NCBI GenBank assembly: GCA_035236585.1 | Contig: CP141132.1 | Location: forward strand, 25,565,445 to 25,629,444 | Direction of reading: 5' to 3' | Length of the DNA stretch: 64,000 nucleotides | From: Warburgia ugandensis | Lineage: Eukaryota; Streptophyta; Magnoliopsida; Canellales; Canellaceae | Shown here: piece after piece, positions 5,386 through 63,978 of the stretch | How the letters are laid out: each line of letters begins with the position of its first letter | Numbering within the stretch: position 1 is the stretch's first letter | Position numbers and translations under genes: made by a program | Notes under the pieces: generated by a model | Told to the model about the DNA's origin: nothing | What the model saw: the letters and a program-made list of their open reading frames with translations, nothing else | Database searches by the model: none

Positions 5386-6250
<865 letters not shown>

Positions 6251-22541: not shown

Positions 22542-22641
<100 letters not shown>

Positions 22642-23753: not shown

Positions 23754-23761
23754 TATAAATA
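23754..23761 (+). promoter_or_regulatory. LTR TATA box of element B (5' copy)
   Basis: TATAAATA followed by GGGG, a typical plant retrotransposon promoter context. The 3' LTR has TATAAACA at 31482-31489, one base changed. Confidence 0.6.
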
Positions 23762-25236: not shown

Positions 25237-25248
25237 TAGTATCAGAGC
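25237..25248 (+). other. Primer-binding site of element B (initiator Met tRNA)
   Basis: TAGTATCAGAGC, one mismatch from the canonical TGGTATCAGAGC, two bases after the LTR end. Confidence 0.85.
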
Positions 25249-25374
25249 TAGGTTGTTCCTTTTACAACCAGTCCTACATGTCAAAAATTTTAAACTATTA
25301 GGAAAAAAGAAGCAGTTGTTAAGTATGATTTAAGGGAGTGACTCATATAGAAAATATTGTGAAATGAAAAATAG

Positions 25375-26400
25375 ATGCCTCCTAGAAAAGGGACTATGGG
25401 GCTGCTGGTTTTTCCACTAATACCCCAAAACAGGAGGCTAATATAGCAAAGTTCATGGCATAGATGATGCAGAGCTTTAAATAGTATATGCAGCAACAAC
25501 AAGCCCAAGTTTAGACACCGTCTGTATTAAACATTCCTACATCAAGCGCTAATGAGGGTAGTTTGGGAGGTAATGCTAGTAAGACAAATAAATTGCTAGA
25601 ATGATTTTAGAGGATGGTTCCAACATTTTCTAGGAAAGGAGAACCATAACCAGTAGAGGAATGGATATACAAGGCTGAGAAAGCCTTTGAAGCTATGGAA
25701 ATTCCGAAAAAGGTGAAGATTGCTACTTTTATCATCACAAGAGAAGCTGCATTCTGGTGGAGGACAGCACAGAGGACTTATTTTCCTCAACCAAATGGCA
25801 TTTCATGGGACATTTTTTGAAACATATCCTATGATAAATACTTTCCTCCCCAATGGAGAGAGAATTTCTGAATTTGTAATAAAGAGATCTTACAGTCTTA
25901 CAATACGAGAATAAGTTTGTACAGTTGAGGAGGCTTGCGTTAGATATTTGCACTTTAGATAAAAAAGATGCAGAAAGATTTGTTTGAGGTTTAGACCCAA
26001 GGTTGAGAACTAAGGTTATGGGGACATAGGCTACTACCATAGCAAAAGCAATGGTAATGGCCTCCATTTTTTAAGAAGAATTCTTTCATAATTAAGTAGA
26101 GCGATCAGATAAAGAGAAATATAGTACTTCTACGAGACACTCAAGTAGAGGTAAGCACGCCTCTTCTTCTTCTTGGGGGCACATAGGGTATCAGGGACAA
26201 CAGGCTACCAAACAAAGTAGCAGGCTGAAAAGGAGATAGTGTCCGAGATGTAAAGTTATCATCCTGATTCACCTTGCTTTAGATTAGGACAGTAGAGACC
26301 ACCGATACGATGTTATAGATGTGGTGAACAAGGACACTTTGTGAATGAGTGCCCAAGAGACAAACAGGTAGTGAACCCAGGATAGAAAATGTACTCATAG
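25375..26400 (+). pseudogene. Element B gag (broken)
   Basis: Capsid/nucleocapsid gene of the Del/Tekay type. It starts at an ATG in the MPPRKG context 140 bp after the LTR and runs through the capsid region, where frames shift repeatedly (about 25580-26080). It ends with an intact CCHC zinc knuckle, C-YR-C-GEQG-H-FVNE-C, at 26311-26352. Stops and frameshifts in every third of the gene make it inactive. Confidence 0.85.
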
Positions 26401-29400: not shown

Positions 29401-29800
29401 AAAGGTCTCCCCTATGAAAGGAATTATCATGTTTGGTACTAAAGGGAATTTGATTCCTCGATGCATTGGTCCTTTTAAAATTTTGGAGAGAATTGGATTA
29501 GTAACACATAAACTAGCAATGCCACCACAACTTATAGATGTTCATGATGTATTTCACATTTTGATGTTGTGCAAGTATGTGCCTGACCCTTCTCTTATAC
29601 TTACACATGTACCAATAGAGCTGCAACCTGATTTGGATTTTGAAGAAAAGGCTGTCCATATTTTGGATAGAAAGGAACACACATTAAGGACAAAGACTAT
29701 TCCATTGGCCAAAGTCCTTTAGCAACATCATTCTGTGGAGGAGGCTACCTGGGAAACTGAGGATGAAATGAAGAGAATGCACTCAGAGTTATTTGAGTAG
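26401..29800 (+). pseudogene. Element B pol: protease, RT, RNase H, integrase (broken)
   Basis: The protease start AIIEGT (about 26450) is followed by LFDPKSIHSF, where the family has D-S/P-G-S, so the catalytic-loop glycine is replaced. RT has LPGLPP (about 26990), [14 protein letters not shown] (27145-27190) and the catalytic FVDDILIYS (about 27500). RNase H has DHKSLKYIF (about 28117). Integrase runs from HHSWYTIHLRGTKMY (about 28553) through KWDHITMGF to EALYGR. The C-terminal part reads ILDRKEHTLRTKTIPLAKVL and EEATWETEDEM, the usual Del/Tekay ending, with TAG at 29798. Intact stretches reach only about 100 codons. The order PR-RT-RH-INT places it in the gypsy family. Confidence 0.92.
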
Positions 29801-29832
29801 CAATGCAAAAGATAATTTCGAGGACGAAATTT

Positions 29833-29847
29833 TTCTAAGGGGGAGAA
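29833..29847 (+). other. Polypurine tract of element B
   Basis: TTCTAAGGGGGAGAA directly before the 3' LTR, in the usual context after the CGAGGACGAAAT motif. It primes plus-strand DNA synthesis in this class of element. Confidence 0.85.
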
Positions 29848-32800
29848 TGTAACAACCCGACATTTTGTCATTATTTTGATTGAATTTGGAATACATAATC
29901 AAAGTTTGCTGAAATTGAAATCCATAAAAGTAAATTTACCAAAAACTCCAAATTAGACTTTGAAACATCAAATTTTAGAATATATGTGACAAGAGCTTTC
30001 CAATGACACTAATTATGCATGAAATAGAGATCAAAGATGGAAAATTCCAAATTTTTACTAAATAATCAGAGAGGGTTAAATTGATAACAGCACCCTTAAA
30101 ATGACGGACCCAGGAGGAGCTCAATGCATGGAGCTCTACTCCCCGCTATCTGTCATGTAGGGAAGAGGCCAACAAGCAACACCGCTTCCCTCTCCCCTCT
30201 CTCTCTCTCCCTTGTGGCATCCCTCTTTGTCTGTACCACTACATCTCTCCCTCTCTCTATATACCCTTCTCCTTAGATAGTTGGCATCGACATTCATAAC
30301 TAGAGACTATCACTAGCACATGTAGGAATCCCACCTGCGCACAATTTTCTCCCTCTCCTTTCCCACTTTTCCCTTTTCCTCTCTCTCTCTCTCTCTCTCC
30401 CATTATCGGCAACAACAAAAAAAATCACTCAAGGTTTTAGCCAACTTTTCCCCTTTTAGGTGATAGAATTACTACAATTTTTAAGGGATTGAAGGTAAAT
30501 TTTGGATCTACAAGAACCATGTTTCATTCTCTTGAAAAATTTGTGTTTTCAATATTGTGTAATAGTCGCTGACAACGACCGTTTTTCAATTGTCTTCTCC
30601 AGTGACTGTGACCAGATTCTAGCAAGGATAAAATTGGGAAACTTAATGAGTGACATTCTTACTGAATGAATTATGCATTTATGTCAACAAAAGTTCAATT
30701 AGAGATCATCTCACCACTGAATTTTTTGTCTAAACTCAATGCACAAATGGTGCTAGATCAACAAATCTGACTATTGAAAACATGATTAAACAGTAGATTT
30801 ATGAATCTAATGATAGAAATTGCATGTTAAGGACAATTTATGTTAAAAATAGTGAGTGAAAAGCTTATTATATGTATAAAATACTGATTGAACCATTAAT
30901 TTGTAGATCTAATCACTTCAGCTCTTAGATATGTATAATTTAGGCCTGGAACATCAGATCTATTAATTGATGTATGAGATTGACTACCCAAAAGCCAAAT
31001 GTATCTGATTTGAGGTTGAACAGCAAATCAAGGATAGTCTAATTGTTCAAATTAGGATCTTAATATACAAATGTGCGATGAAGAAATGACACTTATTCTA
31101 TATTTCTCAAATTTGCACTTAATTGATAATTAAGTCTACGATAGATGATTCTTAATCATCGATCAACCTCCAACTGGTTCGTGATTGATCTTAGTAAATC
31201 TAAACTATCAAATTGAGGTGATTAAATTCTAAGATTGCTAAGTTTTCATGTTCATTACACATGCATTGTTTCATTAAATAAATGTAATTACTAAACTTAA
31301 ATTGTAGTTGATGACTCATTCTAAAATTGTAAAATATGGCAACCTCATAATTTAAATTATGTGATGAATCTTATGTTAATTGTGAATGACATTATTAGGA
31401 GATAGAGTCTCCATTTTTATTTAAATATGAAATGATGACTATTAGGTGAATCACATCACATGCATTAAATATGCATTGTCCTATAAACAGGGAAAACTCT
31501 ATCAAATTTTTCATAAAAATAAAGGAATTTTATGATTATACTTGAAATGGTAAAATGCATATCATGAGTTGATTTCTAACAAAATTTTGTGCATTATTTA
31601 TATTTGACGTATTATTTGCATTTAAATGAAAATTTTGTATTTTTAAATCATGATAAGGATCTGATTATGTAATCAGTGGGCAACTAATATGTCGCTAAGG
31701 GTACAATTGTACTTAAATTTTTCACACATTGATTTGGTGAGGATTTATTTTAGACAGGATCTTTAGCTTGGTGGACACTATGATAGGAGGGTTATAGGGA
31801 TGGCCACCTACCTTCTAAAAGTTGGTATTTCGACAGCAAGCCCAAGTGGCTAGATTTCGAGTATGGCATCATGAGAAGGCTACACTATGCAATCTATTCT
31901 CCCCCCATGTGAGACAATGATAAGTCTCACGCTGTTAGTGTCAACATTTGAGCATGCAATGTCCCATTATTGGGCAATACCTGCAACATAGGGATCATGT
32001 ATTGTTTTAACTATAGTGTCCCATGATTGGACAGTTGTTGTAGTATTATGGAGTCCCATTATAGGGTAGTTGCCGCAGGTTGAGTTTTAGGCACCACACA
32101 CATGATAGTGTCATAGATACCATGGCCACTAGGCATGAAAATGCCTTAGATGATTTGAGAGTTGATGTATTTATATTTGCATGTTGAGAACTAATATATT
32201 TAACATAAATTTATAAGGACTTTCCTATATGTGTTTTAAATTGAGGTTTTAGTGCTTAACTATTTTATGGTCCATTTTGTACACATGTTTATCAAGGACT
32301 CTTTTGATGTGGACATATCACATTATTCTTACCCTTATGTTATACTTGACTAAACTGAAATCTTTGATGGAATGTTTAAAAGGTATGCAAATGATGCATT
32401 ATGAATTTATATTGATAAACCTTATGAACCATACTTAACGATGTTTCATTGTGTGCATGAGTGCATGAATGTAAATTTACATTGATTTATATTTGTGTTT
32501 TTTACCTACTAAGTATATTCCCCTATACTCACCCCACCAACTCCATAGATGAACGCGAAGAAGAGAAAGGCAAGAGCATTGAGACCAAATGCTCCAAATA
32601 GTTAGAGAGAGTATCGACTATGTATGTATGATCTGTTCATTTTATAAATAATGTGAGATGATTGAGTAGCTATGTAACTGTGATAATCAATTTTAGACAT
32701 TTATGAATATGTTTAATGCATATTAGATTGTGGGCTGTAATTGGATACAATTCTAGGAAATGATAAGTTTTGAGTAGTTATATTTTGAATGTAAAAATGC

Positions 32801-32978
32801 GTGATTTCTAAACTCATGAAGGTCTTTTGATCTTTTAGTTGACACTTGGGCTTCTCTAAAAAGTCTTTTCAAAGAAAATTATTTTTGATGTTTGTTTTCT
32901 AAAAGAAATTTTAAAATAAGGATCCCACCTTTCCAAAATATTTCTTAAAAAGGCATTTGAAAAACCTGGGTCATCACA
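29848..32978 (+). repeat. 3' LTR of element B
   Basis: 3131 bp, TGTAACAACCC to GGTCATCACA, collinear with the 5' copy. Followed by ACCAT, the second target-site copy. Confidence 0.92.
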
Positions 32979-32983
32979 ACCAT

Positions 32984-41007: not shown

Positions 41008-42735
41008 ATGAGTTCAACAATAGAAAACATTGTTTAGGTTCACATAGCAACTAAGGTAGAAAACTCATCCAAACTCTTGATTGATCATTTGAATGCTACC
41101 AAAGAGACACAAGACAAGCAATCAATATGCAACTATTGAAGTCCAAGAGAATGTTGGGGTTCAGAATGGCTTGACAGATGATGGGGTCGAACTTCTTTTC
41201 CAGAGGTTAAATCTACGACTTTAGACTTTTAGCCAATCTAGAGAACACTCTGGAGGAACTAAGATTGGAACTTCTGAAGGAAAGATAGACATCTCTTAGA
41301 AAAATTCAAGAATATTGCCCCTAACTTTGATGGATAGAAGAGGCCAGAATCTGTAGAGACATGGCTCTATGACATGAAAAAGACAGTCAAAGCCATGTAG
41401 ATTCCAGAGGACAAGTAGGTTGATGTTAAGATATTTGTTCTGCTAGGTGAAGCTTCTTTTTGGTGGACTACAGTAGAAAGAACCTCCTTTACTAATGTTG
41501 AGGACGTCCAGTGGTTAGATTTTAAGATTATTTTTGAGGATAAATATTTTTCTCGACATGATCAATAAAAGAAGTAGGAATTTTTAAAACTAGAGCAACA
41601 CTCTATGAATGTAGAGTAACGTGAGAACAAATTTTGAAGTGGAGAATATTTGCACCAGGAGTATATCCCACTGAGTTACGAGTCTATGAATGTAGAGTAA
41701 TACAAGAACAGATTCTGAAGTTGAGAATGTTTACACCAAGAGTATGTCCCACTCAGCTATGAGCAGCTTCGAAATTTGTGTTTGGGCTGAACTTTAACTT
41801 GAAAAGCAATATTTTTACTGCCTAGCCCAGCCTACTACTCCTGCGAAAGCAGTGTAATTGGCCTCTATCTTGGACAGAGAGAGTTCAAGGACTCATCGAA
41901 GGATCATGATAAGGCCTAATTAGAAAGGAAAGAAACATGTTTCATTATTGAAGTTTTATAATTCTCGAAGTTCATCATTCTTTGAGTCCAAAAATAAGGA
42001 GGAGAGTCATTCATTGTGTGCTTATTATAAGAAGTCACACCTAGGCAAGATTTGAAACATTCAACAAAATAGTTGTTTTTAGTGTGGGGAGAAGGGGCAT
42101 ATCCATGACTGCTCAAAGAAGAAAAGTGATGATCATCTCAATAGGAATCTGCCCAAAGGCACCATGGGAGACATTTTACAATGACTACTGAGGAGGCTCA
42201 TAGCTCCAATGCATTTGTGGAAGGTACTCTTTTAATCGCTGGCAGACTTTCTAGAATTCTAATTGACCCTGGTTCCATACATTCATTTATGTCTTATGAT
42301 TCTGCGTCATGCAGGGTTTACCCCACACACACCAATTGAGTTTTTGTTTGGAGATTAACACTTCACTTGTGGAACTCATTATTGTTCAAGAGTGTGTTCA
42401 AGATATACCCATTAGTTTGGTAGATCAATAATTACCGTTGATTTGATCCTTCTAAGCATGGCAGGTTTTGATGTCATCTTGGGAATGAATTGATTAGTAG
42501 AGTATGGGGCAATTATCGATTGTAGGAAGAAAAAAGTCTTATTTAATGCACTAGGAAAGAACTCTTCATTTTTTAGGGTATACTTAACACTTCAAGAGCA
42601 ATCATCAAAGAGTATACTAACTCATAACGAAGGGTTGCAGGGCTTTCCTGGCCAATGTTGTGATTCAAGAAACTGCTAGGCCCAAGATTGATGGGATTGA
42701 CACTGTTCAAGAGTTTCAGGAGGTATGTTTAGGTT
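41008..42735 (+). pseudogene. Del-type gag and protease remnant
   Basis: Gag begins near an ATG at 41008. The capsid core appears at 41390-41560 (ETWLYDMKKTVKAM, GEASFWWTTVERTSF, FEDKYFSRH). The zinc knuckle is at 42074-42112, with the third codon of CX2C now TAG. Protease has an intact LIDPGSIHSFMS (about 42259) and AGFDVILGMN (about 42465). About 50 bp near 41590-41640 and 41685-41740 are partly repeated (TCTATGAATGTAGAGTAA). RT, RNase H and integrase are absent; the sequence passes into an LTR tail. Confidence 0.8.
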
Positions 42736-47015: not shown

Positions 47016-47318
47016 AATGGTAGAGTCTACAATGATATAGAATAAACATGCATTAGTCATTACTTAGCTCTTAAAAATATAATATATATATATATAAGTA
47101 TCAAATAAAATATAATTTAAATATAGAATCATAAATTATTACCTTTCAATCCATATAGCCAATCTCTTACACAAATCAATGCTTGCACTATATCTGGCTT
47201 TAAAGCAATCCTATATTGGTCAAGAACCTGACCACCAACACTAAAAGCATATTCTAATGCAACTATAGATATAGGAATGGCCAAGACATCACAAGCCAAG
47301 GCAGTAAGTTTAGGATAC

Positions 47319-47406
47319 CTAAAATCAACATTTTCATCAAATATAAATGTAAATAAGATTATAAAAATATTATTTCTATGAAATAAGAAATTATTAATCA
47401 ACCAAC
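47319..47406 (-). other. 88-bp intron in the hAT transposase
   Basis: The minus strand shows CAATACAG|GTTGGTTG ... GATTTTAG|GTATCCTAA. Splicing joins FWKGNQY to R-YPKL in frame, as in related transposases. The longer unspliced frame through it (47129-47548) is misleading. Confidence 0.75.
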
Positions 47407-48030
47407 CTGTATTGATTGCCTTTCCAGAATGTAAGAATGTCCAGCTTTGACTCTTGCAACCTTGGTTCATCCAAATAAAGCTCCAATTGTGGTTTTGCAT
47501 AGCCAAAGAACATTCTTCACTTTCAAATGAATCAAATTCATAATGCAAATGTAATTATATTATTCAACTTAAAGTAAGACAATTCATAATATATTATAAT
47601 ATTCTAAGCAACATATGAAAATATATATATATAATTACTTATATAACATCTAAAACCTCTTGACTATATGACAAGTTCTATCCATCATCAACATCAAGAG
47701 CACTACCTCTAGCTGTAAAGGAAGATGAATAAGGATGAGGGGAGCTCTTAACCATATATTCATTGAAAAGAGATAATAACTTTTCCTAAACTCGAGCAAA
47801 CTCCAAGAAACCATTACCAAACAATTTCTTGTATGAGAATTCCACAAATGAGAGCTTATATCAAGGATCCAACACACATGTAGTTGCCAAAATGGTGCTA
47901 AATTCTGACTAATACTTTGAAAACTTGGCAAACATTTGAGTGGTCATACTCTTCATATAGTCATCATCACTTCTCATGTATTGTGTTAAACTCAAATAAA
48001 TTACAAATGCTGCACAAAAGTAGAGATTTG

Positions 48031-48175
48031 TTGTAGGATACTTGGATCCAAAAAACATGCTGGTGGCATCATAAAAAAATAGCCAAAAACTTTGAAATTT
48101 TTGTTGTAGGATACTTGGATCCAAAAAACATGCTGGTAGCATCATAAAAAATAGCCAAAAACTTGGAAATTTTTT
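48031..48175. repeat. 73-bp tandem duplication in the transposase
   Basis: Units 48031-48103 and 48104-about 48175 both contain TTGTAGGATACTTGGATCC and AAAAACATGCTGGT. The protein block FLDPS/FGSKYP and 'FWLFFYDAT' therefore appears twice. The units differ at only a few bases, so this happened after the copy was already dying. Confidence 0.9.
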
Positions 48176-49320
48176 TAGTCTTTTCTCATTCGTCGATAGA
48201 AGGACAATGCTTATAATTTGAGTCACTTAGTTCTAAGTGACAAAATGTACGTTGGTAGCAAAGAGCACTTTCAAACATCACATAGGTTGAATTCCACTTT
48301 GTAGGATGATCTTGCCTTAAGCCCTTTTTTGTCTAATTGACATGTGATTCACATACTCTAAAAAAAAATTGTTTTCTACCTTGTGATTCTTTGACATACT
48401 TGATACTCTCTCAAATTTTTTGAATAGCATCATCTGTTTCTTTCAAACCATCTTACACAATCAAATTCAATACATGACAACAACAACAACAACAAAAATG
48501 AAAGAACTCTTCGCCACAAACAAGTGTATTTCTAATGTTCAATTGATGCCTTAACAGCTCAACAGAAGAATTATTAGTAGACGCATTATCTAAAGTGATT
48601 GAAAAAAATCCTTTTCTCAATAATGAGTATAGTTTTTTTGCTAATGATATTCCATTATATGGAGTTAGCAGAAAACAAAATTTTAATATCCTCTGGTATA
48701 AGACCCACTCACTATCTAGAAAATGTGCTATGAGACTTATATAACCATCAGTAATACAATAAGTCCACAAATCAGATGTCAAACTTATTCTACCAGGTGC
48801 AAACTCTAACATCTCTTTTATCTTTCCTTTTTCTCTTCTATACATTATTAGCACATCTGCTTTTACTATATTTCTACTAATCAAATACAAATCTGCACAC
48901 AAATATTTTATTACAGCTCTAATTCCATCATACTCAACAAATTAAAAAGGCAAATCATGCATTACAATTGCAACTGCTAGTAACTCATAAAAAACTTTAG
49001 GATCAAACTTTTCAAAACATAGTGGCATACTCCCCTAACTTTGAGATAAAAGCAGCCACCCTATATCACGAGAATAGATATGCTAACAAGTCTTTAAATG
49101 ACATTTTAAATTACATGAACCAAATTAGCTGTCGCAAATATATACCACAGAGCACTTCCTTTATTTACACCTTTGCTTTCCATCTTTTGATACTGGAAGA
49201 CATCAACTTCCTATGTTTTTTACCTCTGTTGGATTTTGAAACTTAACTCCACATTCTCCAAATCAACAAGATCATCATCATCCTTGTTGTCATGCACTAT
49301 ATTCAAATTATCAAATACAT

Positions 49321-50229: not shown

Positions 50230-50935
50230 GATGGTTCAACAATAACCATCCTATATTATCGCTAAATATAGGATGGTTAATGATAACCATCCTAAATTAT
50301 TACAAAATATAGGATGGTTAACAAACCATCCTACTTTAATAATAAATATAGGATGCTTATATAATAATCATCCTATATTTAGTGATAAGTATAGGACAGT
50401 TCTCAATGAACCGTCCCTGTTTTTATTTACAAAAAAAATTGTTCTGACTCCAAATTGTCATTTGTTAAAGTCACGTGAGGTCTAGACTTCAAGCCACCTC
50501 ACTAACAAAAGGACACCAAATATAGGACAGTTCCCTCAAAACTGATCTATATATTGTGACAAATATAAGACTGTTGCGAGATAATCATTCTATTTTTGTT
50601 TCCCTTACTTAAAATGTTGTCGTTTAGGTGGGTAGAATTCCAAACCTCATGTTAACAAGTTGTTGTTTGGACCGCTTAGCTACACTTAGCTTAGGTAGTC
50701 AAGTTGTGCCAAATTAAGTTTATATTAATTGTAACTACATTCAATTAGAAGTTCAGAACTCAGAAGGATTGTCCCAACAACTACAACTTGCCATTTATTA
50801 ATGTCACATGAGGTTGGGACTTCACTAAAGCCACCTCATTGTCACTAACGATTTTTAAGGAGAGGACACACAATATAGGATGCTTATTTCAGAACTGTCC
50901 TATATTTGGTTAGATATATAGGACATGTAATACAT
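50230..50935. repeat. Array of short inverted repeats, CACTA-like subterminal region
   Basis: At 50237-50400 there are four adjacent hairpin units of the form AACCATCCTATATT-(6 to 8)-AAATATAGGATGGTT. Degenerate half-units continue to 50935 (ATATAGGACAGTT, GAACCGTCC, AATATAGGATGC, TATATAGGACA). Tandem inverted motifs of this kind occur near the ends of plant CACTA transposons. I see no CACTA terminus and no transposase, so the family is inferred. Element C is inserted inside the array at 50936. Confidence 0.6.
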
Positions 50936-53042
50936 GCAATTACACCAATATGATAAATAAATTCATACTTTAAAAAAAAATTGATAAATTTTTATTTATT
51001 TTATTTTGTTGATTTAGGGTATGTTTTAAAAATCAAAAATGAAGGATAGAATGAGCATGATGAGGAATTTGGCTAGATTGAAGTGTTGGGATTGATTGTT
51101 AAGTTAATACAACTATTAGAAAACAAGATTCTAAGAAATAAATAGGAGATTTGATGATTACTTTAAATTAACCTTAATCAATTTAATAAAAAAATATATA
51201 AATATAAAATGATGCTAAATTAAAGAATTAGTTAGACCACTGATAAGTAGAGACATTAACCTAAACTCCATAAAAATGCTAGAGTGAGATTCCAACTAAT
51301 TAACTTGGAATTTCAAAAATGGAAGAATTGTTGTTTAGGGTACAATTGAGAAATGTACCCCAATAGGATATAATTGAAAATGTGGAAGTTAAATTCAGGG
51401 TTTTAATGAGTAGTGATGTCAATGGATCAAGATCTGGATCATTCACATGGGAGTTCTAGCCCATGGCAACTAGCTCCCCACGTGTCATACTACTCTTATG
51501 TGCATATAATATAGTACTAAGTATAAAATGAAAACAAAACTTTAGTCTTAAATAATTCAGTCATTAATAAACTAATGAACATGAAGCAAAGACCGTGGAA
51601 GAAGAAGGAGAGACTAGGAGAGAAGAAGGAAACTAGCTAGAAAGATTAATCAAGTTGTGCTCAGTTTGGGTATTGGAGGAGAAAATGAAGAGCGCAATTT
51701 GAAGAGATGGAGTTTCCATGAGATGAGCTCCACACAGTGAAGAAATGAGCTAGCTGGAGAGAAGATAGTGGAAGGAAGAGAAGAAGGACTAGGCACAAGA
51801 GGTAAAATATGTGCTAGGATCTAGATTTAAAGTAAAGTATTAAGCAAAGAGTTAGAAAGTGAAGGAAGGTGACAACTAGTTAGGGAGATGCATGCATGAG
51901 GGTAGCTCCACGCAAAGAACAGGGAGCATGCAACTCAGAGGAGATCAGCCAGAGATCTAGCCAATCAAACCTCAAAAATAGGTAGGGGTTTAGGTTTTAA
52001 TGAACTGTTAATGTGAGCTTGAATTAGCCAAGTCAAAATTTTCATTTCAAAATCACTCAAAAACTGATGTTTTGCTGGTTTCTGTAAGTGGAACCAGTTA
52101 GTACATTCAAGGGTGAAATGTTCACTTTGGTTCACTCTTTCATGGGATAATTCATGTTAAATCTTCATGCTTTATATTGATTTATGATCACGGTGTGTGT
52201 ATGCCTCAAATGATGTTTGATTTCTGTCAAATTTGTATCGGATATGAAGAAATCTATGCATGCTCTATTCTTTTTCCATAGCTGGTTCATGATAAACAAT
52301 ACATCTTCATCAAGATAATCGCTCTCTTAAACCTCCATATCTTTAAAAAAAAAATCATTTAGGTTATCTTCCTTACTAAGTAAACTTGCTATGGATGTAT
52401 TTCAATTGAAATTTTAAAAGTATTTACATGGACATTTTTGGTTGGATGAATGGAAACATGGGGATGGATGCACCCAAATTTTTGTTAATTAGCAAACCTG
52501 GAGGCCCATTTCCCACTTAAAAATATAACAAACAAAAGCAAGATAATAGAAAGTGAAATATGGGGTTTATTAGAGGCATTGTATTCAATAGATTTCAAGA
52601 GAATTTACTCTTAAAGATTTGTATAATGTGATAGAAAAGTGTGTGCCAACTGGCTGAATAACATATTGTTTTACTGCTTGTATGCATACACAAAACATAC
52701 CAGTTCCTTATATTAGTTGGCTCTAATTAATTGAATTTTTAAAAAGAAATTAGAAGAGGGAGAATTTGATAGTAAATAATGAAAATTTAGAGAGACAAGT
52801 TTTGGATTAGCACCAGAATCCACCTTATTGTATGCACAGTAATTGCTGGAAAAACACATACAAGAGAAGAAGATGACTGGAATACTCTAAGTAATTCAAG
52901 AAATCTAGTCTTAGGAATTTATGGTGCAAAAATGTGGCTTACTTGGAATTTCCAAGAACTATGGAATTCCAGTATAAAGAAAATTTAGTAAAATCTACAT
53001 TTGTTAAGCTAGAAATGAAACCAAAACTTTAAGTATATTTTA
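50936..53042 (+). repeat. 5' LTR of element C
   Basis: Starts TGTAATACATGCAATTACACC. It matches 62746-63978 up to about 52140. The inner end is uncertain: TTGGTAATAAGAGC at 53043 resembles a damaged Met-tRNA primer site, which would give an LTR of about 2.1 kb, but the bases before it are TTTTA rather than CA. No coding content. Confidence 0.7.
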
Positions 53043-53043
53043 T

Positions 53044-53056
53044 TGGTAATAAGAGC
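53044..53056 (+). other. Possible degenerate primer-binding site of element C
   Basis: TGGTAATAAGAGC compared with TGGTATCAGAGC: one extra base and one substitution. It is the only such match between the LTR and the pol gene. Confidence 0.35.
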
Positions 53057-53312
53057 AATGCAACTCATCCTTGAAAAATAAAACATAATAAGGGTATAAA
53101 GGTACTTTGCCTAAAACAATGAAATCACAACACTTCCCGTAGTATAGGACTAGGTTAAATCCTAAGTATGGGACTAAGTTAAATCCCTTAATAAAACTTC
53201 ACCTACCATTTCACTAAAAGGTTGGTTAATACAAGAGAAATTGCAAACTTGATAAGATAAAAGTAAAAAGGTAATTTAGGCTAAAGCATGGGAAATTACC
53301 AAATAGGCCGAG

Positions 53313-54558
53313 CCTACTTGACCTATGTAGATGCGCAAGAGGAATAGACACCTGATATTGAGGAGATTGATGTAATACATGATTTTAGGGATGTGGTCCT
53401 TGATGAATACCAGGGTTACCACCTAGGAGAGAGATAGTGTTCAAGATCGAGTTACTACATGGAGCGACTCCTATCTCCAAGGCTCCTTATCATATGGCCC
53501 CTACTGAGTTGAAGGAACTGAAGGGAAAATACAAGAGTTGCTACATCAAGATCTCATACGCCTTAGTGTTTCACCTTGGGGAGCACCAGTTTTGTTTGTT
53601 AAGAAAAAGGATAGCTCCTTGAGACTGTGTGTAGACTACAGAGCACTCAATGGGGTAACGGTGAAGAACAAGTATCCCTCGCCTCACATTGACGATCTAT
53701 TTGATTAGTTGCAATCAGCCAAGGTTTTCTCCAAGGTTGACCTGAGGATACAGGATGAGGACATCCCTAAAGCTACATTTAGGACTCGATATGGCCACTA
53801 TGAGTTCTTGGTGATCAATTCGGGTAGGCAAATGCACTGGTAGCTTTCATGGACTTAATGGATAGAGTGTTCAAAAATTTTCTAGACAAGTTCATGATCA
53901 TGTTCATTGATGATATTTTGATATACTCTAGCAGTGTAGAGGAGCATAGAGAGCACTTAATGACTATCTTAGGCACTCTTCGAGCACATTGGTTGTACAC
54001 CAAGTTCTCTAAGTGCAAGTTTTGGTTGGATCAGGTACATTTCCTTGGGCATGTTATATCCAAGGATGGCATGGCAATGGGCCCACAAAAGGTGGAGGCT
54101 ACAGCCGACTAGGAGAGGCCCATGACTATGATATAGTTGCATAGTTTTTTGAGTTTAGCATGCTACTATCAGTGATTCATAGAGGGATTCTCTTGTATTG
54201 CATAGCCTTAACAACCCTTACTAAGAAGGACCAGAAGTTTGATAGGTCTAACAACCATGAGGGGAGTTTCCTCGAACTAAAGAAGACACTTACCTCGGTG
54301 CCTATGTTGTTGCTTCTTTAGGGCAGTGATGGATTTGTAGTATATAATGATAACTCATGGCGAGGACTAGGGTTTGTTCTCATGCAACACGGTAGACTCA
54401 TTGAATATGCTTTGAGACAATTAAAGAAGCACAAGCAAAATTACCCCACACATGACTTGGAGTTAGCGGCAGTCATATTTGCCCTTAAGATATGGCACCA
54501 TTATCTTTATGGGGAGAAGTTCAATGTTTTCACTGATCACAAGATCCTCAAGTACTTG
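53313..54558 (+). pseudogene. Element C pol: RT and start of RNase H (broken)
   Basis: Begins with the protease-RT linker TYVDAQEE, then [22 protein letters not shown] (in part, 53458-53522). A frameshift follows before [10 protein letters not shown] (other frame [16 protein letters not shown], about 53568-53615), then [19 protein letters not shown] (about 53628), FIDDILIYS (catalytic, about 53905) and FLGHVISKDGM (about 54040). RNase H has [15 protein letters not shown] and [11 protein letters not shown] (about 54527). The reading is cut at KYL by the insertion of element D and resumes with FTQSDLN at 61218. Several stops. Confidence 0.88.
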
Positions 54559-57162
54559 TGTAATGACTCCAATTTTGTAATATTGAAATTCCAAGTTAAG
54601 CAATGAAAAGATCAGTTTTTGAAGATAAGGGCATTTTAGTCATTTCACTATTCACCTGGACTAAACCCAGAAATTTGGTCCTAAAAATGGTTCCATTAGG
54701 AGCACCTTAGAAAAAGGAATCCAATAAGACCAAAATCACCCAAAACGGAGTTAAAATGAGCAAGTTATGGCCCTTTGAAGTTCAAGGGTAAAACTGTAAT
54801 TTTTACAAAAATGGTTTTAGTCTGCAAAAACACAGGGGCCCGTTTTGATACGGCACCCCTTCATCTTCAACCTCTAGAGGGTTCTAGAACGGTAGTGATT
54901 GGAGGAGAAATCACCACCATTGTGGAGGTTTCTCCACCGCCATTCAAAGGCAGTGAGAGCCCCCTCCAGAACCCTCTCTTAGCTCTATAAATAGAGCTCT
55001 TCGGCACCTCTAATGACAGCCCAAAATGTTGAAGAACAACCCGTCGTGGAGCAGTGACCTAGAGGAGAAAACAAGGAGAAAAACCCAGCAACGAGCCAGG
55101 TACGCCCAAGATCCCTCAAAACCCATCTCCACCATAGTTCCAAGGTCAATTTCCCTAGGTTTTTGCATGAAAAACCATGCAAAATGGAGCCCTGGAGACT
55201 CACCAAGGAGCCAGGGAGTCCCTTGGGTTGCACTGGTTTGATAGGGTCGATCCAAGGTGTCCTGAGGATGCCCCGGTTCCCCAACGAGCAGGACATTCCA
55301 GTCGGAACGTCCCACGTCGTTCCCGTTTGAAAAAAACAAACGGGCGCATCCAGGGACGCGCCTGCAAAAGAGAGAAATGGCGGAAAAACTCAGCGCATCT
55401 CCTGCTGAGGCGCATGCCGCAGACACGCAGCGCTAGTAGTGTGTCATTTTTTCATTCCTTATGGAAGCCAGGGCACACGTCGCAGACGCGCAGCGCCCTA
55501 GCATTCCAACTTTTTATTTTTAAGACTCCTATGTACATACGACACTAAAACGCTTATAACTTGAGATCTAGAGCTCCGATTGAGGCACCGCAAAACGCGT
55601 TGTGTCCTTATCGACAATGCGGACAATCCAAACTATAAAATCCCTGATCAAGGCCCAATCAAAGGTGGGAATGACCCTTAAAATAGGATGGTGGCGCGTG
55701 GCCACTAGAACTTTGGAAAACTGAGGATACCAAGGCCCAATTAGGACCTTAGGAAACCCATAGGTATAGGGATGGACCCCTAATGCCTAAGTCATAAGAC
55801 CAGCTACTCTAAAACCCATAAAAGATAGGCCAAACTAACCTTGATTCCCCAAACCATGATCAGGAGCGTCCGAGGACAAAAGGGTTAGCGCGACCTAGCC
55901 AGGTAGGTGCTCTATCACTATTAGATTCTTTTAAAAGATCTATTGTTGTTTTGAGAACATATGTTATAAGTATATGACTTGTTTAGCATGACTTGATTCA
56001 GCATGCATGTGATAAATGTTTTGTACATAACCATGTTTTGAAATGATTGCATATACATTATGCACATATATGTTTTTCAAACAATTGTATACATTGCATG
56101 ATTTAGTTCTTGCAAAAATTGCATGTCCTTGAGGGTTACCAAAAGACGTTGGAATGCCGAGGGCCAGGCAGTTGTGAGGGACCCAAAGAGGACAGGTTTT
56201 GAACAAAGGTTTTTGGCTTATTTGATCAAACATGATTTGGGCTAGTAAGCTCGTGGGTGCTATGCCGAGGGGTGTGGGTTGGCCACCCAACCTCTACCAC
56301 TATTAGGTGGATGGGTACCACGCCTAGAAAGGGCATGTCCCTACTTCGACTGCATGTGTTACAGGGGGCTACCACTAGTGTCACGGCACTGGGTCGAAAT
56401 GTCATATGCCCCGTGGAGGTATATGATCCTGTGTCCCTAGGTACCCGGGGACCATACGGCGGTGAGGTCGTGGGCATAGTGGGACCCTATGGTTTCATGG
56501 ATTTATGTGCATTGCATATGGCATGATATGAGGTTGGTCGAGCATACCATACTAGAGATCCATGAGTTGGATTCCATGAAGCATCTTATGCATATCATGA
56601 TATTATGATATATATGTATATGATACTTTCGATTTTGGATTATATGATCCTTTAAGTCCTTAGTATTTCAGTTTAACAATGGATTTTAATATCAATGTTG
56701 CACTTGAGTATTCAAACATACACATGTTTTGAATGAGCATATGATTATAAAACATCTCATGTATTATAAAACTAGTAGTGATAGGCTCCTACTGAGTATA
56801 GTATATACTCACCCAATCCTCAACATTTTTCAGACACTAAGTAAATACTTAAGGACAGGGAACGTTCGTGCTAGGAAGACACCTAGACAAAGTGTAAGTA
56901 AGTAAACCCCTACCTTATCTTTCAATGTTACTTGGTTGTAGTTACTCTCTAATAGTCAAATTTGTGATTAACACTTTCTTGGGAATAATATTGATTTAAA
57001 CTTTGCCATGGCTAAATAATTTGAGAATGTTTTTTGACACTTAGGGTTTTTATGAAAGATTGTTTTCCAAAAGAAAAAGATTTTCATGCATCTCATACTT
57101 ATAAAACAAGAGATCTCGCCTTTTTATCAAAATTTCATCATATAAAAACCCGAGTCGTGACA
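54559..57162 (+). repeat. 5' LTR of element D
   Basis: 2604 bp. U3 is 427 bp up to the TATA box at 54986. Then come a CpG-rich block (55300-55510), an A+T-rich R/U5 and the ACTGAGTATAGTATATACTCACC block near 56790. The minus and plus frames inside (54985-56526) are not retroelement genes. Confidence 0.94.
54986..54993 (+). promoter_or_regulatory. LTR TATA box of element D, 5' copy
   Basis: TATAAATA inside AGCTCTATAAATAGAGCT, at the transition to the CpG-rich block. It is conserved in the 3' copy at 59020-59027. Confidence 0.75.
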
Positions 57163-57164
57163 GT

Positions 57165-57176
57165 TGGTATCAAAGC
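57165..57176 (+). other. Primer-binding site of element D (initiator Met tRNA)
   Basis: TGGTATCAAAGC, one mismatch from canonical, two bases after the LTR. Confidence 0.88.
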
Positions 57177-57302
57177 ACGGTTTAACGTTACTCACAGCCC
57201 AGTTATGAGGAGAATAACTTATAATCAAGTTTCATCCATGAAAGAGTAAGGGGTAATAGGATAACACAAACTGAGATTTGGTGAATTACCTTGTGATTAC
57301 AG

Positions 57303-58403
57303 ATGCCTAAGAAGAAAGAAAGCAATGCTCCAAGACCTGAAGCCCCACCAGTGGACTCCACTAGGTCGGGCAATGGGATGGCTGAGTTATTCCAACAATT
57401 CCTACAAAATATGGGACAATACATGAATAGCCATAGCCAAACTCCTACCACCCGAGATCCTTCCCCTGATAAAGCAATAGATAGGACTGAGGTTTAGTTA
57501 GAAAGATTTCAGAAACTAGCTCCCTCATTCACAGGAGAAGATGAAGCATCTACAGCTGAAAAATGGTTAATTAATATTGAAAAGATATTTAAGGCCATGA
57601 ACATAGCTGAAGAAAGAAAAGTACCCATGGCCACATTTGTGTTTAGAGGAGAGGCTACCTTTTGGTGGGAAACAGCAGAAAGAACCTATTTTGATCAGCA
57701 AGAAACAATAGGAAGGGAAGAGTTTAAAAAGGTCTTTAATGACAAATATTATCCTAAACACATAAGAAAACAAAAGGAAAAAGAATTTATGGACTTAGAA
57801 CGAGGAAATATGACTGTCCAACAGTATGAAAATAGATTCATCAGCCTCCGAAGATTTGCACCACGTGCTTGTGCTGATGAGGAAGATGCAGCCGAAAGAT
57901 TTGTAGATGGACTCAACCCAGGACTCAGGAGCAGAGTTCTAGGTTTCCAACCTTCCACAGTAGCCAAAGCCGTAGAGATGGCCTCCCTATATGAAAAAGA
58001 TTATCAAAGGAACCAGGCAATAAAGGAAACCAAGAACATCAACACCATAAGAAATAAAGAAAAGAGACCATTTCAGTCCTTCGAACCCAGGCCACCTTTC
58101 AAGAAGCCGTTTGAAAACAAAGAAAGAAGACTAGACTGGAAGACATGCCCTAAGTGTAACAAGTATCATTCAGGCAAACCATGTCCCATTTCCAACATCA
58201 CTTGCTATCTTTGTGGAGAACCAGGACATTTTTCTAGGGATTGTTCTAAAAAGGAAGTTGAAGAGCATAAAGGGGATCAACTTCCAAAAAGCCAAGGACG
58301 TGTTTTTGCCCTCACTTCAAGTCTAGCCCAAGCATCAAATGCTATAGTTGAAGGTACCCATAGAGTTGATAGAGGATCTCAAGCTAGAGACGAGACCAGT
58401 TGA
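57303..58403 (+). pseudogene. Element D gag, nearly intact, one internal stop
   Basis: Structural protein of the particle, 367 codons from ATG 57303 to TGA 58403, with one in-frame TAG at 57495-57497 (context TEV*LERF, where a Gln codon is likely to have mutated). It starts with a basic PKKKES tail and a Pro-rich linker. The capsid core has TAEKWLINIEKIF (about 57550), GEATFWWETAERTYF (57648-57692), FNDKYYPKHIRKQKEKEF and AERFVDGLNPGLR. The nucleocapsid has a CPKC motif and an intact CCHC knuckle, C-YL-C-GEPG-H-FSRD-C (58204-58245). The 268-codon stretch after the stop (57597-58403) is fully open. It runs over the pol deletion junction at 58354, so the last 15 or so residues are not original gag. 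Confidence 0.9.
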
Positions 58404-58542
58404 GATCCAGAATCATAAGAGTAAGAAGCTGTGGAACAAGGACATACACTTAGTCAAAGTTTTGTGAAGAAATGTGCACATGGAAGAAGAGACTTGGGAA
58501 CTAGAGTCAAAAATGCGAGAAAAGTACCCCGAGATCTTTTGA
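58357..58542 (+). pseudogene. Element D pol C-terminal remnant
   Basis: Frame +1 relative to gag. PIEL is followed by a Lys/Glu-rich stretch with RPVEIQNHKSKKLWNK, then LVKVL, a TGA where the family has Trp, and EEETWELESKMREKYPEIF before the stop at 58542. This is the standard end of Del/Tekay pol. Protease, RT, RNase H and most of integrase are missing upstream. Confidence 0.85.
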
Positions 58543-58576
58543 ATGTATATAGTAGAATTTTGGGGGAGAAATTCCC

Positions 58577-58591
58577 CTAAGGGGGTAAGAA
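58577..58591 (+). other. Polypurine tract of element D
   Basis: CTAAGGGGGTAAGAA directly before the 3' LTR. Confidence 0.85.
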
Positions 58592-61212
58592 TGTAATGAC
58601 TCCAATTTTGTAATATTGAAATTCCAAGTTAAGCAATAAAAAGATCAGTTTTTGAAGATAAGGGCATTTTAGTCATTTCACTATTCACCTAGACTAAACC
58701 CAGAAATTTGGTCCTAAAAATGGTTCCATTAGGAGCGTCTCAGAAAAAGGAATCCAACGAGACCAAAATCACCCAAAACGGAATTAAAATGAGCAAGTTA
58801 TGGCCCTTTGAAGTTCAGGGGCAAAACTGTAATTTTTACAAAAACGGTTTTAGTCTGCAAAAACACAGGGGCCCGTTTTGATACGGGCACCCCTTCATCT
58901 TCAACCTCTAGAGGGTTCTAGAACGACGGTAATTGGAGGAGAAATGACCACCATTCTCGAGGTTTCTCAACCGCCACTCAAAGGCGGTGAGAGCCCCCTC
59001 CAGAACCCTCTCTTAGCTCTATAAATAGAGCTCTTGGGCCCCTCTAATGGCAGCCCAAAACGTTGAAGAACAACCCATGGTGGAGCAGTGACCTAGAGGG
59101 GAAAATAAGAAGAAAAACCCAACAACGAGCCAAGTATGCCCAAGATCCCTCAAAACCCATCTCCACCATAGTTCCAAGGTCAATTTCCCTAGGTTTTTGC
59201 ATGAAAAACCATGCAAAATGGAGCCATGGAGACTCACCAAGGACCCAGGGACGTCCCCTAGGTCGCACTAGTTTGACAGGGTTGAACCAGGGTGTCCTGA
59301 GGACACCCCGGTTCCCTAACGAGCTAGACATTCCAGTTGGAACGTCCCAGGTCGTTCCCGTTTGAAAAAAACAAATGGGCACGTCCAGGGACGCGCCCGC
59401 AAAAGAGAGAAATGGCGAAAAAACTCAGTGCGTCTGCAGACGCACCCGCTAAGGTGCATGCCACAGACACGCAGCGTGCTAGCAGTGCGTCATTTTTTCG
59501 TTCCTTAAGAAAGCCAGGGCGCACGTCGCAAACGCGCAGCGCCCTAGCATTCCGTCTTTTTATTTTTAAGACTCCTATGTACATACGACACTAAAACGCT
59601 TATAACTTGAGATCTAGAGCTCCGATTGAGGTGCCGCAAAAGGCGTTGTGTCTGTATCGACGACGCAGACACATCCAAACTATAAAATCCCTAATCAAGG
59701 TCCAATAAAAGGTGGACATGACCCTTAGAATAGGATGGTGGCGCGTGGCCACTAGAACTTTGGAAAACTAAGGATACCAAGGCCTAATTAGGACCTTAGG
59801 ACACCTATAGGTATAGGGATGGACCCCTAATTCCTAAGTAATAAGACCAGTTACTCTAGAACCCATAAAAGATAGGCCAAACTAACCTTGATTCCCCAAA
59901 CCATGATCAGGAGCGTCCGAGGACAAAAGGGTTAGCGCGACCTAGCCAGGTAGGTGCTCTATCACTATTAGATTCTTTTAAAAGAACTATTATTATTTTT
60001 GAGAACATATGTTTTAAGTATATGACTTGTTTAGCATGACTTAATTCAGCATGCATGTGATAAATGCTTTGTACATAGACATGTTTTGTAAATGATTGCA
60101 TATACATTATGCACATATATGTTTTACAAACAAGTGCATACATTGCATGATTTAAGTACTTGCAAAGATTGCATGTCCTTGAGGGTTGCCAAAAGACGCT
60201 GGAGTGCCGAGGGCCAGGTAGTTGTGAAGGACCCAAAGAGGACAGGTTTTGAACAAAGGTTTTTGGCTTATTTGATCGAACATGATTTAGGCTAGTAAGC
60301 TCGTGGGTGCTATGCCGAGGGGTGTGGGTTGGCCACCCAACCTCTACCACTATTAGGTGGATGGGTACCACGCCCAAAAAGAGCATGTCCCTACTTCGAC
60401 TGCATGTGGTACAGGGGGCTACCACTGGTGTCACGGCACTAGGTCGAAGTGTCATATGCCCCGTTGAGGTATACGATCCTGTGTCCCTAGGTACCCGGGG
60501 ACCACACGGCGGTGAGGTCATGGGCATAGTGGGACCCTATGGTTTCATAGATTTATGTGCATTGCATATGACATGATATGAGGTTGGTCGACCATACCAT
60601 ACTAGATATCCATGAGTTGGACTCCATGAAGCATCTTATGCATATTATGATGTTATGATATATATGTATATGATACTTTCGATTTTGGATTATATGATCC
60701 TTTAAGTCGTTAGTATTTCAGTTTAACAATGGATTTTAATATCGATGTTGCACTTGAGTATTCAAACATACACATGTTTTGAATGAGCATATGATTTTAA
60801 AACATCTCATGCATTATAAAACTAGTAGTGATAGGCTCCTACTGAGTATAGTATATACTCACCCAATCCTCAACATTTTTCAGACACCAAGTAAATACTT
60901 AAGGACAAGGAACGTTCGTGCTAGGAAGACACCCAGACAAAGTGTAAGTAAGTAAACCCCTACCTTATCTTTCAATGTTACTTGGTAGTAGTTACTCTCT
61001 AATTGCTGGGGCTGTGACTAACACTTTCTTGGGAATAATATTGATTTAAACTTTGCCATGGCTAAATAATTTGAGAATGTGTTTTGACACTCGGGGTTTT
61101 TATGAAAGATTGTTTTCCAAAAGAAAAAGATTTTCATGCATCTCATACTTATAAAACAAGAGATCTCGCCTTTTTATCAAAATTGCATCATATAAAAGCC
61201 CAGGTCGTGACA
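58592..61212 (+). repeat. 3' LTR of element D
   Basis: 2621 bp, collinear with the 5' copy. TATA box at 59020-59027. It contains a perfect 18-bp palindrome, GTGCGTCTGCAGACGCAC, at 59428-59445, which is damaged in the 5' LTR. A 206-codon frame runs antisense at 60527-59907. Confidence 0.94.
59020..59027 (+). promoter_or_regulatory. LTR TATA box of element D, 3' copy
   Basis: TATAAATA in the same AGCTC-flanked context as at 54986. Confidence 0.7.
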
Positions 61213-61217
61213 ACTTG

Positions 61218-62724
61218 TTTACTCAGAGTGACCTCAATATGAGGTAGAAACGTTGGCTAGAGTACTTGAAGGACTTCGACTTCACAATTTAGTACCATAT
61301 GAGCAAGGCTAACGTAGTGGATGATGCCCTTAGAAAGAAGTTAGGTGGCGTGATCGCCAATCTCACCATCTAATCAGCATTTATGGATTAGATTTTATAG
61401 GCACAGCAATCATGTAGTGAGACTTGGACACTATGTGACAGAGATGGTTTTGAGAGAGGAGCAGATGGTGGGATCAGATATCAGGGTAGATTAGTTATGC
61501 CAGTAGTAACAAATTTGGGATAAGAGCTATTGAGGGTGGCTCATCACTCTTAGTGGGCCATTCATCCAAGGGGTAAAAAGATGTATCATGACCTAAGAAG
61601 ACTGTTTTGGTGCCAGAGCACAAAGAGAGATATAGGAGAGAGAGTGTGTAACTAGATGCATTACTTGTCAACAAGTCAAGGCTGAACATCAAAGACTTGC
61701 AGGGTTACTACAAAGTATAGAGCTTCTAGTGTAAAAATGGAACCACATCACTATGGATTTTGTGGTTGGACTACCGAGGACTCACAGTAGACATGGCGCG
61801 ATTTGGGTCATAGTGGACCAACTTACCAAGTTGGCACATTTCCTTCCCAACAAATAGGGACAGACCTTAGAGAGCCTTACTAAGATTTACATCAGGGAGA
61901 TAATCAACTTGCATGGAGTTCCTCTAGTCATCATTTCAAACAGACACAACAAGTTCACCTCTCGATTTTAGCAGTGTATAGGACGACCTAGGTTCATCTA
62001 TGCATTTTAGGACAACATTTCATCCCAAGACTAATGGTCAGTCTGAGAGGACGATTCAAATACTAAAGGACATGTTGAGAGCATGCGCACTAGATTGGAA
62101 AGGTTGTTAGGATGAACATCTACCACTAATAGAGTTTGCCTACAGCGATAACTATCACATGACCATTGGGATGGTTCCATATGAGGCATTGTATGGTAGA
62201 CCTTGCCAGACACCTACATGCTGGAGTGACGTTGGCAAGAGACTGTTTTTCAAATCCAAGTTGGTAGAGCAGTCTACAGATGAAGTGAGATTGATTAGGA
62301 GACGTTTGATGGCAGCCCATAGCAGGCAGAAGAGCTATGCCAACATGAGGAGGAGATATTTGGAGTTTTAGGTTGGAGACCATTCTTTCTGAGAGTTTCT
62401 CCAACCAAGGGTGTGATGAGATTCGGTGTGAAAGGGAAGCTAAGCCCCAAGTTTGATGTGCATGACATATTCCATATTTCTATGCACTCATATCCTAGAT
62501 CAGTTACCAGCTGATCTGTAACCAAATTTGACATTTCAAGAGTGGCCAGTATAAATCATTGATGGGAAGGAGAAGGTATTACAAACCAAGATGACCCCCT
62601 AGCCAATGTTCTATGGCGGCATCATTCTTATGAGGAGGCCACATGGGAGGTCGAGGAAGATATGATGCAACATTTCCCAGAGTTGTTTTTATTTTCACAT
62701 TTGAGTACAAAATTTCGAGGATGA
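61218..62724 (+). pseudogene. Element C pol: RNase H end, integrase and C-terminus (broken)
   Basis: Resumes with FTQSDLN at 61218, immediately after the ACTTG target copy. Then YLKDFDF, SKANVVDDAL (an altered DALSRK site), integrase AIHPRGKKMYHDLRR (about 61559), [10 protein letters not shown] (frame-changed, about 61753), EALYGRPCQTPTCWSDVG (62185-62238) and RVSPTKGVM (about 62393). The end is EEATWEVEEDMMQHFPELF and a TGA at 62722. Many stops and frameshifts. Confidence 0.85.
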
Positions 62725-62730
62725 AATTTT

Positions 62731-62745
62731 GTAAGGGGGGAAGAG
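62731..62745 (+). other. Polypurine tract of element C
   Basis: GTAAGGGGGGAAGAG immediately before TGTAATACATG, after the signature AAAATTTCGAGGATGAAATTTT (62709-62730). Confidence 0.82.
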
Positions 62746-63978
62746 TGTAATACATGTAATTACACTAATATGATAAATAAATTCATATTTTTGCAACAAC
62801 AAAAAAAAGAGAGAGAAATTTTTATTTATTTTATTTTGTTGATTTAGTATATGTTTTTAAAAGTAAAAATGAAGTATAGAATGAGCCCATTGAGGAATTT
62901 GGCTAGATTAGAGTGTTGGGATTGATTGTTAAGTTAATACAAGTATTAGAAACGAAGATTCCAAGAAATAAATAGGAGATTTGATGATTACTTTAAATTA
63001 ACCTTAAGCAATTTAATAAAAAAAAATATAGAAATATAAATATAAATTGATGTCACATTAAGGAATTAGTTAGACCACTGATAAGTAGATTCATTAACCT
63101 AAACTCCATCAAAATCCTAGAGTAAGATTCCAACTAATTAACTAGAAATTTTAAAAATGAAAGAATTGTTGTTTAGGGTACCATTGAGAAATGTACCCCA
63201 ACAGGATATAATTGTAAAAGTGGAAGTTAAATTTAGGGTTTTAATGAATAGTAATGTTAGTGGATCCATATCTGGATCAGTTGATCTGGATTATTCACAT
63301 GGGAGCTCCAACCCATGGTAGCTAGCTCGCCACATGTCATACTACTCTCACATGCATATAATATAGTACTAAATATAAAATGAAAGTAAAACTTGTCTAA
63401 AATAATTCAGCCATTAACAAACTAGTAAACTTGAAGGGGAGACTATGGAAAAAGAAGGAGCAACTAGGAGAGAAGAAGGGAACTAGCTGGGAAGATTAAT
63501 TAAGTCATGCTCAGTTTGGGTATTGGAGGAGAAAATGAAGAGCTCAATTTAAAGAGATGGAGTTTCCCTGAGATAAGCTCCACACAGTGAGGAATTGAAC
63601 CAGCTGGAGAGAAGATAGTGGATGGAAGAGAAGAAGGATTAGGCATAAGAGGGAAAATACGTGCTAGGATCTAGATGTAAATGATTAAGTAAAGAGTTAA
63701 AAAGTGAAGTAGGGTGATGACTGGTTAAGGAGATGCATGCATGAGTGAAGCTCCATGCAAAGAACAGGGAGCATGCAACTCAAAGGAGATCAACCACAGA
63801 TCTAGCTGATCAAATCTCAAAAATAGGTAGGGGTTTAATTTTGGATGAACTATGAATACGAGCTTGAATTAGCCAAGCCAAAATTTTCTTTTTAGAATCA
63901 TTCAAAAACCAATGTTTTGCTGGTTTCTATAAGTGGAACCAGTCAGTACTTTCAAGGTTGAAATGTTCACTTTGATTT
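62746..63978 (+). repeat. 3' LTR of element C, interrupted
   Basis: Collinear with 50936-52145 to the AAATGTTCACTTTG motif, after which the two copies part. Non-coding. Confidence 0.85.

Follow-up and report, generated by a model that had tools for sequence, protein, structure and literature searches.

How can a retrotransposon that has kept gag and lacks nearly all of pol come into being, and can such an element still spread? This question is raised by element D, a long terminal repeat (LTR) element of 6654 bp at positions 54559-61212 of a 64,000-nucleotide stretch of Warburgia ugandensis DNA (assembly GCA_035236585.1, contig CP141132.1, positions 25,565,445 to 25,629,444 of the forward strand), which is called the window below. 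Gag-only families of this kind, the TR-GAGs, have been reported from many plants, and in the literature surveyed their origin was seldom followed back to an event defined to the single base. In the present case, the parent family and its derivative are found within one genome, and the joint in the derivative matches a splice junction. The founding event was probably (roughly 60%) the retro-copying of a spliced RNA, as judged from the bases at the joint.

Element D, its junction family and the autonomous parent

Element D is bounded by a 5′ LTR of 2604 bp (54559-57162, plus strand, TG...CA) and a 3′ LTR of 2621 bp (58592-61212, plus strand), which are 93.5% identical by blastn, that is 6.5% different. 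The target-site duplication ACTTG was read directly at 54554-54558 on the left and 61213-61217 on the right, with no strand assigned. Directly 3′ of the 5′ LTR is the primer-binding site TGGTATCAAAGC (57165-57176, plus strand), which we take to be of the plant initiator-Met type, and directly 5′ of the 3′ LTR is the polypurine tract AAGGGGGTAAGAA (58579-58591, plus strand). The internal part (1429 bp) consists of a leader, gag and 238 bp of pol tail, all three being colinear with their counterparts in the autonomous relative. The gag frame (57303-58403, plus strand) runs from the ATG at 57303 to the stop at 58401-58403 and is open from 57597, with one in-frame stop in its N-terminal third. A Pfam scan, covering the open gag part, revealed Retrotrans_gag (E 6.6e-16), Ty3_capsid and zf-CCHC, the CCHC zinc knuckle being located at 58197-58250 (plus strand). 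The pol 3′-end remnant (58354-58591, plus strand, 238 bp) ends in the polypurine tract, lies in another frame than gag and corresponds to the integrase C-terminus and chromodomain of the autonomous relative. Because leader, gag and pol tail fill the internal part, D contains no protease, reverse transcriptase (RT), RNase H or integrase core. An earlier reading of the window from its letters (the sequence-only reading) had likewise described D as gag-only, lacking these same domains and following the TR-GAG pattern, and the LTRs, target duplication, primer site, gag domains and polypurine tract bear this description out.

The two retained parts meet at the junction GAAGGTACCCATAGAG (58350-58365, plus strand). 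The junction itself had been recognised before, at 58351-58364, and it stands with the span corrected.

With a 61-bp junction query, 40 scored places of 93-100% identity were obtained among 827 candidates in the genome. A genome pattern search located the exact 23-base junction at 97 places, distributed over all 14 contigs (141 places with up to two mismatches), and the reversed 23-base control pattern gave 0 matches in the same search. All 39 places other than D from the 61-bp search were sampled, 20 as long pieces and 19 over gag and tail, some of them partial; 60 further junction places were sampled as 146-bp pieces, two of them not long enough to enter the distance table. The joint was present in 20/20 copies fetched with flanks, and the 16 bases GAAGGTACCCATAGAG were unchanged in 18 of these 20 long copies, with one change each in the other two. 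In 14 of 21 copies (D included) the two outer ends were found, and ten of the 14, D among them, have a 5-bp target duplication without mismatch, with a different sequence in each of the ten. Because the target duplications differ between copies, the junction was spread by integration. LTR divergence within copies ranged over Kimura two-parameter distances (K2P) of 0.021-0.104 (D and 13 others), a rough range because truncation affects several of these LTRs and one of the copies is part of an array. Copies of the junction with different flanks had been proposed as the sign of a transposing family, and D is almost certainly a member of a transposed non-autonomous TR-GAG-type family.

Some junction copies are grouped. 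Fifteen of the 97 exact places fall in six clusters, three of three copies (C2:28.49 Mb, C3:40.59 Mb and C7:40.77 Mb) and three of two (C6:47.12 Mb, C2:21.72 Mb and C2:71.58 Mb, the last pair 2.6 kb apart). The unit spacing in five clusters is 3.9-4.2 kb, equal to one LTR plus the internal part, and for this reason these five look like head-to-tail LTR-sharing arrays; such an array was seen directly in copy L011. Outside the junction family, four tail matches at C13:31.311-31.333 Mb have an array-like spacing of 7.11 kb, and four gag-pro places at C1:50.050-50.068 Mb have a spacing of 6.04 kb, short of the 7 kb that a full element would give, and these may represent a further form of deletion. 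Within the junction family, a subgroup (L108, L119, L146, L138, L098 and L109) has in common a 9-bp gag deletion near 58265-58273; in a search for an autonomous subfamily carrying it, 39/40 scored places crossed the junction and one ended before it.

The autonomous relative was found by an ungapped pattern in copy L029, which has a D-type pol tail with integrase upstream. With the integrase 3′ end of L029 as query, 40 scored places were obtained from 2821 candidates, and the 39 apart from L029 have 93-94% identity. This integrase end matches SH3_Tf2-1 and Chromo, and because of these domains in one copy we call the parent a chromodomain Ty3/gypsy family. The gag of D is 88-93% identical to that of three autonomous copies, and the LTRs are 79-89% identical in the main pieces and 71-72% in two short pieces. 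The primer site in three autonomous copies is TGGTATCAGAGC or TGGTATCAGAAC, one or two bases off that of D, and the polypurine tract region is alike across 11 tails. There are 740 places in the genome with an intact gag-protease site and 380 with an intact 3′ site; the patterns CGTTGAAGGTACCNATAGAG and ATGCTRTAGTTGAAGGTACCNT gave 0 matches each.

Element B (22586-32979, plus strand), which the sequence-only reading had taken as the complete relative of D, is a distant Ty3/gypsy relative. It has, like D, a Ty3/gypsy gag and pol tail, and its GTACC words at the homologous places (26463-26467 and 29609-29613) are as described. The closeness did not hold: the LTR and internal part of D gave no blastn match to B at E 1e-5, and at the protein level the Gag pieces share 31% and 47% identity, which rules out B as the parent of D.

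The joint and its possible origins

The gag side of the joint was alignable in seven of eight close autonomous copies, all seven reading GTTGAAGGTATTC, and thus GAAGGTATTC and not GAAGGTACC; the eighth was a short spurious match. The 3′ side in the eight copies reads CAGGTACC in six and CAAGTACC in two, and D reads GTTGAAGGTACCCATAGAG across the joint. The autonomous ends are GTTGAAG/GTATTC on the gag side and CCAG/GTACC on the 3′ side. Because the seven aligned copies read GGTATTC, the word common to both ends is the five-base AGGTA (58352-58356 within the D junction) and not GTACC, for which the argument had rested on the distant element B. The earlier proposal, in which either template switching or end joining acts on a five-base word, is possible at AGGTA and fails at GTACC, and it had not considered a GT-AG splice reading.

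The joint of D, between 58353 and 58354 in this reading, matches to the base the outcome expected from excision of a GT...AG segment (AAG/GTATTC ... ACCAG/GTACCC). Among 18 site pairs on contig C1, with gag sites hand-picked among the matches listed, the distance between the two sites was 3164 bp in five and 3160-3164 bp in 11, over a full range of 2887-3268 bp; site-to-site lengths vary in decayed autonomous copies. The donor ranks 1-2 among 28-34 GTs in seven autonomous copies, and the acceptor ranks 1-3 among 36-39 AGs in the five of the seven with CAG. About 20 nucleotides upstream of the acceptor is CTGAC, which we take to be a branch-point-like word. Gag ends 15 residues beyond the joint codon, at the TGA of 58401-58403, which is present in 41/42 rows (a gap in one), with an earlier stop in 2/42. 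In the autonomous copies, the sequence 3′ of the gag side presumably is the protease start, to which it bears a resemblance by eye.

Through a comparison of possible end pairs in the seven copies, we found 5-8 common bases in 2289 of 1545174 pairs. A GT-AG reading of any kind was found in 30 of the 1630 pairs with exactly five common bases, and the observed splice score was reached by nine of 1456 pairs with at least five (five CAG copies), the observed pair being counted both times. The distinct pairs listed at that score all use this acceptor and one of two donors.

These observations suggest the following course of events. The D family would be derived from the abundant chromodomain Ty3/gypsy family of the same genome, through splicing of a GT...AG segment of about 3.16 kb, from protease to near the integrase end, out of an autonomous transcript. 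The spliced RNA would have kept both ends, the primer site and the polypurine tract, and could have been copied into a heritable family; its reverse transcription and integration would have produced the family founder. The family may supply its own LTRs, packaging region and Gag, with protease, RT, RNase H and integrase provided in trans by the autonomous relative. In BARE1 and EVADE, spliced gag-only RNAs are known, and the founding RNA would be their equivalent in Ty3/gypsy. We give an even chance to the wider statement that a spliced gag-only RNA of a Ty3/gypsy chromovirus was copied and amplified into a heritable family under Gag selection, which would make splicing an origin of TR-GAGs, perhaps a repeated one. 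If this is true, some TR-GAGs may be genomic copies of gag-only RNAs, the D family would be a genomic fossil of excess-Gag production by a plant Ty3/gypsy element, and the question of excess Gag would become testable through GT-AG ends at TR-GAG junctions across genomes.

Several points weigh against a spliced founder. The evidence for splicing comes from genomic DNA, and the five bases AGGTA would also permit a plain microhomology deletion. The acceptor AG is lost (CAA) in 2/7 sampled autonomous copies, and positions +4 to +6 of the donor deviate from the preferred bases. Scores for the splice sites are approximate, from rounded plant matrices, and the null for end pairs covered windows of 801 and 401 bp only and was designed after the joint was known. 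D also exceeds the TR-GAG size limit of 4 kb. A retro-copied spliced RNA would be unusual because the spliced RNA of BARE1 belongs to the translated and not the copied pool (PMC3735527).

The same joint could be formed by a template switch or slippage of RT between AGGTA words about 3.16 kb apart, after which the shortened complementary DNA would be multiplied in trans and the GT-AG ends would be a coincidence. The five bases are identical at both ends, so long a common word is rare among the end pairs (2289/1545174), and recombination between family members is evident here and known for Arabidopsis Onsen (PMC5668417). However, the coincidence that is needed was met in only 30/1630 five-base pairs, and the splice score in 9/1456. 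Furthermore, the joint is placed at the gag end, with Gag stopping 15 residues later, as in known gag splicing. We regard a template switch as rather unlikely.

A different question is whether the same junction arose repeatedly, through splicing and copying of different autonomous subfamilies, which is compatible with a spliced founder. A gag tree with 54 rows placed 32 of the 34 junction rows on one branch (99/90); the other two, L056 and L092, have the exact junction and a gag that groups beside another autonomous subfamily. A single clade for all junction rows was rejected (approximately unbiased (AU) test, p 0.008 for whole gag and 0.013 for its last 349 bp). In a search across the joint of L056, 24 of 40 scored places stopped at the joint, at 97-98%, and the other 16, L056 included, crossed it; among 39 other genome matches to the L056 tail, at least seven are autonomous by coordinates. 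Against this, at least nine of the 39 are junction copies, neither count including the two best matches, and the rows nearest to the L056 tail, of those compared, are D and L053, which carry the junction. Over the first 700 bp of gag, the remaining junction rows likewise fail to form one clade (p 0.0025), which indicates recombination among these elements, and a crossover in the ~78 bp before the joint (estimated by eye) would suffice for L056 and L092. Recombination can explain these two copies without a second splicing event, a point that also counts against the spliced founder, and we consider a repeated origin unlikely.

Chromosomal microhomology-mediated end joining in one autonomous copy, later transcribed and mobilised, would use the same AGGTA word at both ends, and microhomology deletions are common in plant LTR elements. 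However, it meets the same coincidence with splice signals as a template switch, and in addition the single deleted copy must have remained transcribed, which makes end joining highly improbable. Taken together, the two routes through AGGTA, template switching and end joining, have a tentative standing, short of an even chance. That D is a single copy decayed in place with a local junction, for which the in-frame stop in its gag and the 6.5% LTR difference might speak, has practically no chance, a single in-place deletion being excluded by the 97 junction places on 14 contigs and the differing target duplications.

Selection on gag and the surroundings of D

Gag is free of stops and gaps in only one of 42 rows (projected on D, insertions uncounted). 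Variants were counted in 36 copies, five array or near-neighbour duplicates having been removed from 41. The ratio of synonymous to other variants was 69:220 among singletons and 65:66 among variants in at least three copies (p 2.9e-7), and no such shift was found in the two wrong frames (p 0.25 and 0.72). When C>T and G>A were left out, the counts in the true frame were 43:132 for singletons and 33:20 for shared variants (p 8e-7), and one wrong frame shifted in the opposite direction (p 0.0045 for at least two copies and 0.08 for at least three), which is expected because third positions become second positions.

Ten nonsense gag variants occurred in at least three copies of the 36-copy set, all of them C>T or G>A, and this is a further point against the proposed history. 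Recurrent deamination can explain them, and they still weaken the reading as selection; recombination from unsampled autonomous copies could also add to the class of shared variants. In a restricted test on 35 copies, without L056 and L092 and with variants absent from 22 autonomous copies, the ratio was 47:157 for singletons and 22:13 in at least three copies (p 7.8e-6; wrong frames p 0.11 and 1). Nonsense variants there numbered ten among singletons and 0 among shared ones, none of the shared being left after removal of those also found in autonomous copies. The variant counts suggest past purifying selection on the family gag, and the elements may have played more than a passive part, with Gag apparently maintained as they spread.

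An older Ty3-type element (50926-63977, plus strand), with terminal direct repeats at 50926-52132 and 62746-63977, contains D nested in its pol, pieces of which flank D on left and right. The terminal-repeat divergence is K2P 0.123 for this host element versus 0.062 for D, and the host pol is ~64-66% similar to that of element B. Elsewhere in the window, a related LTR fragment (3541-5333, minus strand) has 79-81% identity to the D LTR, and a second decayed Ty3-type gag (41395-42228) has pieces 32-50% identical to D Gag. Two open frames at 47129-48902 (minus strand) contain hAT-type transposase-like pieces, recognised by eye only, and an open frame at 5307-5873 (minus strand) is mostly simple repeat with a long SLSL run and is an unlikely gene.

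Comparison with known systems

The D family resembles TR-GAGs in its two LTRs, primer site, polypurine tract, GAG-only domain, many copies and autonomous Ty3/gypsy relative. Two LTRs with a target duplication were found in D and in 9/13 other end-located copies; the GAG-only domain, primer site and polypurine tract were found in D. The differences are the pol tail, the founding junction at GT-AG and the length of 6.65 kb, owing to the 2.6-kb LTRs. The 2015 paper on TR-GAGs reportedly includes a length under 4 kb in the definition; D, with 6654 bp, is longer, and one LTR plus the internal part comes to about 4.03 kb. The gag domains rule out D as a LARD (no coding domain).

Inpactor assigns TR-GAGs by GAG alone or GAG with aspartic protease (AP) (PMC6022998), TR-GAGs are listed among the non-autonomous types (PMC10552921), and they are found among the centromeric retrotransposons of Coffea (PMC5818461). 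AT5TE33540, an ATCOPIA63-derived TR-GAG, is described as transposing in Arabidopsis ddm1 (PMC8704663). Like D, it is gag-only with a fuller autonomous relative, and it shows that such elements move; unlike D, it is Ty1/copia with a single open Gag frame, and its movement was observed, whereas that of D is deduced from target duplications. A literature search, in which most papers were judged by listing, gave no account of a TR-GAG whose junction coincides with splice sites, and none that combined TR-GAG with microhomology.

At the joint, D resembles spliced gag RNAs. Splicing in EVADE is said to remove the protease domain with a frameshift and a stop soon after the joint, with similar splicing in BARE1 (PMC12786077), and a short isoform of EVADE is described (PMC8892269). 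In BARE1, the donor is CAG/GTAT, the stop comes three residues after Gag, GT and AG stand at the borders, genomic DNA gave no shorter product, and the RNA pools for translation and copying are distinct (PMC3735527). Short gag isoforms are likewise mentioned for triticale and sunflower (PMC7765848, PMC7730604). Two features of the shGAG type are found in the D family: the segment removed has GT-AG ends, and a stop follows soon after the joint. Like the RNAs of BARE1 and EVADE, D has its joint at the gag end, pol expression abolished and an early stop after the joint; unlike these Ty1/copia RNAs, it is a Ty3/gypsy element with nearly all of pol removed and is present in ~100 genomic copies.

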